Shown piece by piece: positions 27,244 to 29,083 of a stretch of DNA of 51,087 nt (the first letter of the stretch is position 1; every line of letters begins with the position of its first letter). The notes under the pieces are model-generated. The model had not been told where the DNA came from and did no database searches. It saw only the letters and a list, made by a program, of their open reading frames with translations. This stretch comes from a virus, in the IMG/VR virus record IMGVR_UViG_3300030329_002097, positions 1,950 through 53,036 of that record, one strand, 5' to 3'. Position numbers and translations under genes: made by a program.

Positions 27244-28019
27244 CTTAATATACCTTCTATTTGATTACTTCCATAATATTTTAAATCTTCTTCAAGTATT
27301 TTTACTTGAGTATCCATGTAGTACCTTAATTGATTGCTTATGTCAAATGCTTTGGTTGTTGCGTCCCTATCTAAAGCAATTATAACCTTTTTAAAATGTT
27401 TTTTTAATACTGGTATATAGCTTTCCGGTAAACTTGTACCCATCAAAGCCACACCACAATAGAAATTAGATACAGCACACGCACTAGCACAATCCTCTAC
27501 AATAATTGCTGTGTCATGTTTACCACACATAAAAGGATAACTCTTATCTCCATACATAAACCATTTAGGGTAAACCTCCGAAGTTAAACCTCTACCTACT
27601 GCCCCCACAACCTCCTGGCCTTTTTTTATTACAAACACCGCTCGGTGTTGTCTTACATCATATTTAATATCTACTAGCCCATTCATGTACGCAACCATAC
27701 AATGGTTTTTTTTCATATACTCTACACATTTTTCTGTATTATAAACTGATACAAAATTTTTAGGAACAGAAAATGTTTTTTTAATATTTGCATTTGATGA
27801 TAGTAATAATGAATTTTCAACATCTTTCATAGACATTTCTTTTTTAACATTACCTTTGGCATTACATGAGGCATGAAAACAATACCACATAACTTTGCCT
27901 TCTGATTTTTTAATTGTGAGTGTGTTGGTGTGATTACAAAAAGGACAATCTATTCGTGTGTCCACATCATCACCTTGAATGATACCTTCGATAATTTGTA
28001 ATTGATTATTAAAATTCAT
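27240..28019 (-). CDS. Stand-alone primase with zinc-binding and TOPRIM domains
   Basis: 259 aa. Residues 25-52 hold CPFCNH and CFHASC, a four-Cys zinc-binding domain like that of T7 gp4 and DnaG. The TOPRIM core has Glu175 (IIVEDCASA) and the DxD pair Asp217/Asp219 (IIALDRDA). It would make RNA primers for the polymerase and helicase encoded downstream. Compared with T7 gp4, primase and helicase are separate here. The predicted transcription start of its promoter falls at or next to the ATG, so the message may be leaderless. Confidence 0.8.
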   Translation of the reverse strand: MNFNNQLQIIEGIIQGDDVDTRIDCPFCNHTNTLTIKKSEGKVMWYCFHASCNAKGNVKKEMSMKDVENSLLLSSNANIKKTFSVPKNFVSVYNTEKCVEYMKKNHCMVAYMNGLVDIKYDVRQHRAVFVIKKGQEVVGAVGRGLTSEVYPKWFMYGDKSYPFMCGKHDTAIIVEDCASACAVSNFYCGVALMGTSLPESYIPVLKKHFKKVIIALDRDATTKAFDISNQLRYYMDTQVKILEEDLKYYGSNQIEGILR

Positions 28020-28026
28020 AGAATGG

Positions 28027-28054
28027 TTTATAGTTATTATTTAGAATAAGTCAA
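28027..28054 (-). promoter_or_regulatory. Promoter of the primase operon
   Basis: On the - strand: TTGACT (28054-28049), 16 bp, TATAAA (28032-28027). The expected start point, about 7 bp on, coincides with the primase ATG at 28019, leaving no room for a ribosome site. Confidence 0.7.
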
Positions 28055-28088
28055 GTGGGGTTTTAGTGGTTAAACGCAAGAACCCCAC
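28055..28088. repeat. Inverted repeat next to the primase promoter
   Basis: GTGGGGTT at 28055-28062 is complementary to AACCCCAC at 28081-28088, immediately upstream of the -35 hexamer. There is no U-run after it, so it is either a non-terminating hairpin or an operator for the primase promoter. Confidence 0.5.
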
Positions 28089-28100
28089 AAAACGAGCGTA

Positions 28101-28280
28101 TTAGTAGTGTTTAAGCCTTTTCTTTTGCCTTCTAATTTCCTTTAGTATATCTTCATAACTAAAGTAATCTTCAACAAAACCAGATTTTTCAATAATAATG
28201 TTTGCAATATCTATATCATTCTCGTGAGAATTATCTATAGTTGCCAACATTATTTCATTAAATGCTGTTTCTTCAGACAT
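28101..28280 (-). CDS. Small acidic protein (59 aa)
   Basis: An AAGGAGG ribosome site precedes ATG at 28280. The product begins MSEETAFNEIMLATIDNS, is acidic, and ends in a basic KEIRRQKKRLKHY tail. It is the first gene after the large structured segment and could share its transcript. A short hairpin (CCTTTTAAGG) overlaps the ribosome-site region. Unknown function. Confidence 0.6.
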   Translation of the reverse strand: MSEETAFNEIMLATIDNSHENDIDIANIIIEKSGFVEDYFSYEDILKEIRRQKKRLKHY

Positions 28281-28299
28281 AAAATACCTCCTTCCCCAC

Positions 28300-29048
28300 C
28301 TCCTTAAAAGGAAGTGTGAGGAAGTGCTAGCAAATTTGGATTAACACCCTATCTTTGCTAGAGGGATTTGGATTAACACCCTATATCCCTAAACTCTTAA
28401 ACTTACGCTAGTACCAAAGGGTTTCTGGAATCTATCTAGAACCACTTTCTACAGCCAACCACCTACAAGTCAATCGCCGACAGGTTTGATACTAGCGTAA
28501 ACTTAAACTTTCGTAAGGAGTGTGACGGGATTATCTTTTCTTCACAATCATTCTACTCGTCAGTAGACCCCTCTCCTTACGGAAACTTAAGTGAGTGACT
28601 TTCCGTGCCATGTCTTTTAACGGACTTTGACTAGTCGTGGCTAAGTCACCCAAATAAATTTGGGTAGTTTTAACTATGCTTATTGCACATTATGGCACTA
28701 CCCATGCCATTTGTTACATCTGTATGGTTACCCTTGTCTGCCATATCTGTTTCACTATGGTCTGAGAGGTGGACGGAGACGTTGCCACGAACCATTGCCA
28801 TTAATTTCAATTCCACTGGAATCCAAATGTAACAATTATATATACTTGGCATATTTTATACCCACAATGTCAATTCATTGGGACAGGTATATTTTTATAG
28901 CCGTTAGCCTGTATTGTTTATAGACTCTTTGTTTAGTCAGTCTGGTTTTTGGTTATGCCACCTGCTAAGGCAGTAGAATTTAATCTTTCCCAAGCACCTA
29001 CGCACTAAACAATTAAGCCATCAACTTTTCATTATCGGCAACCAAATA
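28300..29048 (-). ncRNA. Candidate ~750-nt ornate structured RNA
   Basis: No credible gene occupies this segment. Complementary arms found by eye: 28403-28418/28485-28500 (16 bp, one G-U as - strand RNA), 28502-28520/28573-28591 (about 19 positions, three non-Watson-Crick) enclosing hairpins 28521-28546 and 28553-28566, 28595-28601/28643-28649 enclosing 28602-28606/28620-28624, 28648-28665, 28692-28710, 28711-28719/28827-28835, 28929-28937/29004-29012 and 28948-28959/29037-29046; the last two cross as a pseudoknot. C-A mismatches on the + strand that become G-U on the - strand outnumber the reverse. A sigma70-type promoter precedes it. Resembles GOLLD/ROOL-class RNAs in size and setting; family unproven. 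Ends are approximate. Confidence 0.7.
28334..28384. repeat. Two tandem hairpins carrying the same apical sequence
   Basis: A 19-nt sequence (ATTTGGATTAACACCCTAT) occurs at 28334-28352 and 28366-28384. The first copy is enclosed by CTAGCAAA/TTTGCTAG (28327-28334, 28354-28361), the second by AGGGAT/ATCCCT (28362-28367, 28385-28390). As - strand RNA the shared loop contains GG-UGUUAAU-CC, compatible with a T-loop (U at position 1 and A at position 5). Different stems with an identical loop indicate selection on the loop. Confidence 0.8.
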
Positions 29049-29055
29049 TATAAAC

Positions 29056-29083
29056 CTTATAAACTAATAACTGCTTATGTCAA
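29056..29083 (-). promoter_or_regulatory. Promoter of the candidate large RNA
   Basis: On the - strand: consensus TTGACA (29083-29078), 16 bp, TATAAG (29061-29056); the expected start is near 29048. The -35 hexamer contains the stop codon of the upstream gene. Confidence 0.8.

Follow-up and report, generated by a model that had tools for sequence, protein, structure and literature searches.

Recurring structured cassettes compose a putative modular RNA ahead of the primase gene in marine phages

Results

Genomic Setting and Strand of the Region

The window analyzed here, that is, the whole stretch of DNA of 51,087 bases out of a viral record of 53,036, carries replication genes on its − strand: a primase, a DnaB-like helicase, a PolA-type polymerase, and a Cas4-type exonuclease. 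An earlier note on this DNA had assigned it to a marine phage, and the DNA polymerase agrees: its closest relative is that of Pelagibacter phage HTVC033P (58.5% identical), with roseophages and HMO-2011 next, which by sequence places the phage near the HMO-2011-type group. About 1 kb separates the primase gene (27240 through 28019) from a gene for a 317-aa protein (29080 through 30033). In dozens of contigs an RNA array lies 9 to about 380 nt ahead of a DNA primase gene; these primases are 37 to 70% identical to that of the window, and the position of the locus beside replication genes (primase, helicase, PolA) is conserved. The 317-aa protein upstream of the RNA, which found no match in a PHROGs search, has relatives at 41 to 46% in the same place in other contigs.

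The earlier note had described the intervening DNA as a highly structured RNA of about 750 nt, free of any credible gene and read from the − strand behind a consensus promoter; this description held in its main points, with an RNA of about 760 nt in a unit that reaches the promoter at 29083. No convincing gene is present in 28290 through 29079, where the longest start-to-stop open reading frames (ORFs) encode 87 aa (+ strand) and 60 aa (− strand). A long conserved ORF through the region was considered and rejected, as the region holds short ORFs only and its homologs share RNA helices. The minimum free energy of folding gives z = −6.7 for the − strand and −6.0 for the + strand, and 0 of 20 shuffled sequences were equally stable. 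Folding energy alone cannot decide the strand, which was assigned from the promoter and from the balance of G-U and C-A cells; over the homologs, in the − strand reading, this balance is 17:0 in module C, 14:2 in module F, and 20:12 in module B. In 15 of 27 loci the 5′ module is preceded by a promoter with at least 10 of 12 consensus matches, compared with 4.6% of shuffled controls. Transcription of the window's RNA is predicted to start at about 29047 to 29050, which sets helix P1 of module A at the RNA 5′ end. That the region acts as an RNA from the − strand is, in our judgment, nearly certain; the favored reading is that this strand encodes a single transcript of a new modular class of phage RNA. 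The features, all on the − strand and in the order of that strand, are as follows.

29056 to 29083, − strand: sigma70-like promoter, TTGACA-N16-TATAAG (11 of 12 consensus matches), just behind the stop of the upstream gene
28290 to 29052, − strand: entire structured RNA, about 760 nt, comprising cassettes A (with E67 inside), D, PK, X, B, C, H1, and H2 and a 3′ hairpin
28837 to 29052, − strand: module A, the 5′ domain
29042 to 29052 with 28837 to 28849, − strand: module A helix P1, covarying in homologs
29036 to 29039 with 28900 to 28903, − strand: module A pseudoknot GCCG/CGGC, with many compensatory changes in homologs
28930 to 29013, − strand: cassette E67, inserted in the P2 loop of module A; recurs in L022
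28908 to 28912 with 28883 to 28887, − strand: module A helix P3
28861 to 28882, − strand: module A P4 hairpin
28710 to 28835, − strand: cassette D; recurs in L021, L111, L025, and L139 at 84 to 95% identity
28661 to 28709, − strand: cassette PK; profile matched in 71 loci
28706 to 28709 with 28693 to 28696, − strand: PK hairpin TGGC/GCCA, whose loop GGGTAGT (28697 to 28703) pairs with ACTACCC (28662 to 28668)
28592 to 28652, − strand: cassette X; recurs in L024 adjoining B and C
28503 to 28590, − strand: cassette B, with an 18-pair outer helix, two inner hairpins, and a pseudoknot (28569 to 28571 with 28527 to 28529)
28399 to 28504, − strand: cassette C, with a 20-position outer helix (28485 to 28504 with 28399 to 28418), covarying in 9 homologs
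28361 to 28391, − strand: hairpin H1, read from the sequence, in tandem with H2; the pair recurs in L063, L070, L100, and L121
28328 to 28360, − strand: hairpin H2, read from the sequence, in tandem with H1
28290 to 28324, − strand: 3′ hairpin (fold z = −3.65), covering the Shine-Dalgarno sequence of the 59-aa ORF
28101 to 28280, − strand: 59-aa ORF after the RNA, from the ORF listing; a related stretch (m45) is found in L019, L031, and L146
28027 to 28088, − strand: hairpin (28055 to 28088, no U run) abutting a second promoter-like site (28027 to 28054) before the primase gene, from sequence positions

Recurrence, Order, and Nesting of Cassettes

Homologs were gathered by neighbor-protein search and by exact patterns in IMG/VR (L numbers label loci); nearly all are metagenome contigs. 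Almost all of 28290 through 29052 matches pieces of other phage contigs, differently ordered. Conservation does not span the whole region; instead, separate pieces (q19 through 58, 67 through 152, 162 through 241, 240 through 371, 368 through 419, 419 through 691, and 484 through 581, where q counts down from 29079) recur in varied combinations at up to 98% identity. An unsupervised search returned 45 recurring segments, about 30 of them in RNA arrays, and the class is present in well over 100 IMG/VR contigs as counted with few short exact patterns.

Arrays share a layout in which module A or G comes first behind the promoter, variable cassettes follow (PK, D, X, B, C, E67, m06, m08, m17, m18, m24, m26 through m30, m34 through m40, and m44), and module F with an intrinsic terminator often comes last. 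Cassette order varies: B precedes C in the window, L024, and L019, and C precedes B in L023. Nesting varies as well: PK harbors segment m34 in L025 and L139, whereas in L075 and L078 this segment occupies the P2 loop of module A. Cassette D directly follows the promoter, without module A, in L021 and L111. Cassette B stands alone in L033 and also, on the opposite strand, in L021; positions 28490 through 28590 of the window are 98% identical to L016, L025, and L027, within surroundings that differ. The module B profile did not confirm two exact-pattern matches to B in bacterial genomes, which were treated as chance.

The cassettes are far better conserved than the adjacent genes. Cassette D of the window is 95.5% identical in nucleotides to that of L021, although the two primases agree at 38% of residues, which suggests that distant phages have exchanged the cassette or that it is very strongly constrained. 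The outer helices of B, C, and others have common terminal sequences (AARTTTA..TAAGTTTAA), which might serve as a recombination handle, and hairpins H1 and H2 carry a common inner sequence (ATAGGGTGTTAATCCAAAT) within differing stems. Together with the covariation of cassettes A, B, and F described below, recurrence in changed order and nesting shows a cassette-built RNA, its predicted closed and conserved domains having been recombined, permuted, and nested in each other's loops between phages. The earlier picture of one fixed ornate RNA is replaced by independently recurring, nestable cassettes. Four of the window's ten cassette junctions (D-PK, X-B, B-C, and H1-H2) were found again in other contigs and six were not, so that the exact cassette order of the window rests on one assembly.

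The alternative 5′ module, G (CTGTGAAAGTGGATAAAACCGCCACCGACTAGTGTTCCG), was seen in L046 (2951 through 3028), L024 (1137 through 1211), and L105 (10766 through 10840). It has the motif CCAC(C)GACTAGT..TCCGTTAA in common with the window's cassette X, of which it may be a relative.

Covariation and Pseudoknots

Covariation was examined in A, B, F, C, and PK, homologs of D, X, E67, and H being too scarce; it was strong in A, B, and F and was also found in the outer helix of C. Among the 54 parsed homologs of module A, helix P1 forms at least 8 of 9 pairs in 52, with 14 distinct 5′ strands; the mean is 8.35 of 9 pairs, compared with 5.91 when the 3′ strands are re-dealt (maximum 7.0 in 1000). The pseudoknot strands of A also covary (GCCG/CGGC, TCTG/CAGA, TTGAC/GTCAA, and TAAGAC/GTCTTA), and the P2 loop is 15 to 129 nt long.

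A pair of crossing helices proposed in the earlier note survives in part. Helix 28929 through 28937 with 29004 through 29012 is plausible and closes cassette E67, both halves of which recur in L022; there, E67 lies downstream of module A and its own loop carries a further insertion. The proposed partner helix, 29037 through 29046 with 28948 through 28959, was rejected because homologs use the former strand for P1 and for the GCCG/CGGC pseudoknot. Beyond the helices listed in that note, modules PK and B each contain a pseudoknot.

In 22 distinct homologs of module B, 17 of 32 pairs are changed on both sides, 97.4% of cells are paired, and the covariation score is 0.274 (0.132 in shuffles); in module F, 8 of 14 pairs are changed on both sides. 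For each of the two modules 0 of 500 shuffles were as high, a count that is no probability where sequences are related. One pair of the B pseudoknot (columns 26 through 28 with 68 through 70) is changed on both sides in two sequences. PK is almost invariant (97.8% of cells paired, low variation) and is weakly backed, by pairing rather than by variation. The 16-base PK pattern alone would yield chance matches; most of those used are backed by the profile and by the downstream ACTACCC.

Module A Outside the Arrays

Module A is a leader before a ribosome-binding site in 28 of the 54 parsed cases (by a loose pattern), and other copies head long noncoding arrays. It stands alone in L034 through L039 and in the cultured phage HTVC115P. 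A blastn search against isolates gave a single match, of 71 bases, to HTVC115P between two annotated genes; among INPHARED isolates, module A was found in HTVC115P only, and the other arrays had no match except one chance match of 22 nt. In HTVC115P (L001, 2738 through 2869) the lone, unannotated module lies between two hypothetical genes, directly before a ribosome-binding site. As HTVC115P is a cultured SAR11 phage (host HTCC7211), module A is open to laboratory tests.

3′ Ends and Self-Complementary Loops

In most loci a GC-rich hairpin and a T run lie behind module F, and in many arrays an intrinsic terminator immediately precedes the primase gene. The array of the window has neither module F nor a U-run terminator; it ends in the H hairpins and the 3′ hairpin, and a similar terminal hairpin and ORF occur in L010, L011, and L150. 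With its Shine-Dalgarno sequence in a stable hairpin, the 59-aa ORF may be under translational control. L151 was matched by the F pattern, but the F hairpins are missing there and the match, within coding sequence, appears to be due to chance. In L045 (around 3623 through 3677), the 3′ arm of the terminator behind F runs into a promoter-like TTGACT..TATAAT and apparently doubles as the −35 region of a primase promoter; read in this way, array and primase would be separate transcripts.

The hairpin loop of F is always a 6-nt palindrome (GCTAGC, GTTAAC, or GTATAC; for example L029, 2060 through 2172). A loop that is its own reverse complement in three versions predicts a kissing-loop homodimer. 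One position of cassette C likewise holds TCTAGA, CCTAGG, or ACTAGT, with an exception in L045 (TCTAGG, nonpalindromic), and CTAG occurs more often in the cassette library than expected (19 versus 8.4). Because the window has no F, self-pairing of its own RNA is suggestive only.

Comparison with Known RNAs

At the gathering score, Rfam gave 0 matches in the window and 16 homologous loci, self-cleaving ribozymes and riboswitches included. With E values of up to 10, positions 28000 through 29100 of the window and L023 (1 through 730) matched chance families only (miRNA, thermometer, and others, with scores well under the family cutoffs); a lone glmS match in L023 (E = 5.2, 11 bits versus 37) was discarded. 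The Rfam covariance models of GOLLD, ROOL, and OLE matched neither the window nor the homologous loci. The RNA is accordingly filed under none of these, and of the two options left by the earlier note, a divergent GOLLD or ROOL member or a new class, the evidence favors the second.

GOLLD often lies near tRNA islands, whereas ARAGORN found 0 tRNA or tmRNA genes in the window. GOLLD is phage encoded, about 800 nt long, and rich in pseudoknots, with a conserved 3′ region and a less conserved 5′ region (PMC12286853). The window's RNA is similar in size, phage origin, and pseudoknots, but it differs in its combinatorial composition, with cassettes moving between loci and loops; no part of the conserved GOLLD 3′ region was matched, the 3′ ends here being F and a terminator or, in the window, the H hairpins. 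ROOL is likewise a large, ornate RNA of phages and prophages with pseudoknots and conserved kissing loops (PMC12286853); its fixed P1 through P19 architecture is absent here, where cassettes are exchangeable.

Other likenesses are partial. HIV-type dimer-initiation hairpins kiss through self-complementary loops, and the F loop has such a 6-mer; its sequence and setting are unrelated, however, and its dimerization is predicted for a module outside the window. The put RNAs of phage HK022 are antitermination elements; like them, module A is a structured RNA near a phage transcript 5′ end, but size and fold differ, and A is found as well at the head of arrays closed by intrinsic terminators. Phage tRNA arrays and anti-defense islands, too, are clustered, exchangeable units of variable content at a fixed locus, whereas here the units are structured RNAs other than tRNAs, in one transcript and nested in loops. 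The paper on HMO-2011-type genomes does not mention noncoding or intergenic RNA. Our search covered the open-license literature; an earlier description elsewhere is possible, and single cassettes may already figure in large lists of candidate phage RNAs. What appears new is the RNA class and its combinatorial architecture.

Discussion

Large structured phage RNAs are few, and to our knowledge no other RNAs are built of structured domains that are shuffled, and inserted in one another's loops, in the manner of protein domains. Our preferred reading of their role is a tentative one, in which a protective 5′ domain is joined to exchangeable cargo domains that bind partners such as host factors. 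The 5′ module (A, or G elsewhere), with its closing helix at the first nucleotides, would shield the 5′ end, and F with the terminator would shield the 3′ end in loci having both. The inner cassettes would be the cargo, each folding independently and each binding or titrating its own partner (a host RNA-binding protein, a nuclease, or a defense component), and cassette exchange would let phages alter the set of partners. Binding elements that are interchangeable and selected one by one would be expected to vary in their combinations while each unit stays tightly conserved. About half of the parsed copies of module A precede ribosome-binding sites, so its role is not confined to the array, and 5′-end protection may be the simplest role common to all copies; its use as leader or array head and the variable length of its P2 loop fit a 5′-end role with a loop tolerant of cargo. 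Against the cargo reading stand the 59-aa ORF with its ribosome-binding site in the last hairpin, which equally fits a cis-acting leader; the palindromic loops of F, which point equally to self-assembly; and the window itself, which has neither F nor a U-run terminator.

A broader version is possible but doubtful: a combinatorial RNA system with protective 5′ and self-pairing 3′ domains around a recombining library of dozens of partner-selected cassettes. If true, the locus would be an RNA counterpart of a protein anti-defense island.

A self-assembling RNA scaffold strikes us as rather unlikely. The RNA would form homo-oligomers by kissing loops as in GOLLD and ROOL, with cassettes decorating the particle. 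GOLLD and ROOL, which the window's RNA resembles in size and phage origin, do form RNA-only particles (PMC12286853); the F loop varies yet stays self-complementary, as dimer-initiation loops do, and the palindromes of cassette C and the CTAG enrichment fit as well. The window's array, however, lacks F, and cassette order and number are too variable to conserve a fixed symmetric particle easily; moreover, the palindromes come from few independent lineages, some CTAG sites lie in stems, and C is nonpalindromic in L045.

We find it still less probable that the region is a long cis-acting 5′ leader tuning the stability, termination, or translation of the small ORF or of the primase operon. Synteny with the primase gene, the copies of module A that alone precede coding genes, and the ribosome-binding site within the window's last hairpin all speak for such a leader, but an intrinsic terminator closes many arrays just ahead of the primase gene, the terminator arm in L045 runs into a promoter that would separate the two transcripts, and the cassettes vary freely while the downstream gene is constant.

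A role in replication, as a promoter-driven transcript beside the primase gene that would prime replication or mark its origin by a logic comparable to that of ColE1 RNA II and T4 R-loop origins, is very improbable: the locus keeps its place beside primase, helicase, and PolA genes, but single cassettes and module A also occur away from replication genes (L033, L034 through L039, and HTVC115P), the composition is too variable for an origin, and on casual reading no origin-like repeats were noticed in the region. We give least credence to cassettes as selfish, mobile palindromic DNA without RNA function, of which nested insertion, stand-alone copies (L021 and L033), and common ends would be typical, given the covariation in complex pseudoknotted cores, the one-strand G-U bias, the consistent orientation after promoters and before terminators, and the conserved synteny.

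For experiments aimed at the preferred reading and its rivals, stand-alone cassette copies are natural minimal units for work on structure and binding, and the self-complementary F loop allows a one-experiment test of RNA self-assembly. Other noncoding segments adjoin the PK motif in the closely related contigs L064, L083, L110, L112, L120, L127, and L135, which have segments m12, m13, m21, m25, m32, and m33 in common, some with m06; these contigs are probably a second phage group having the same RNA.
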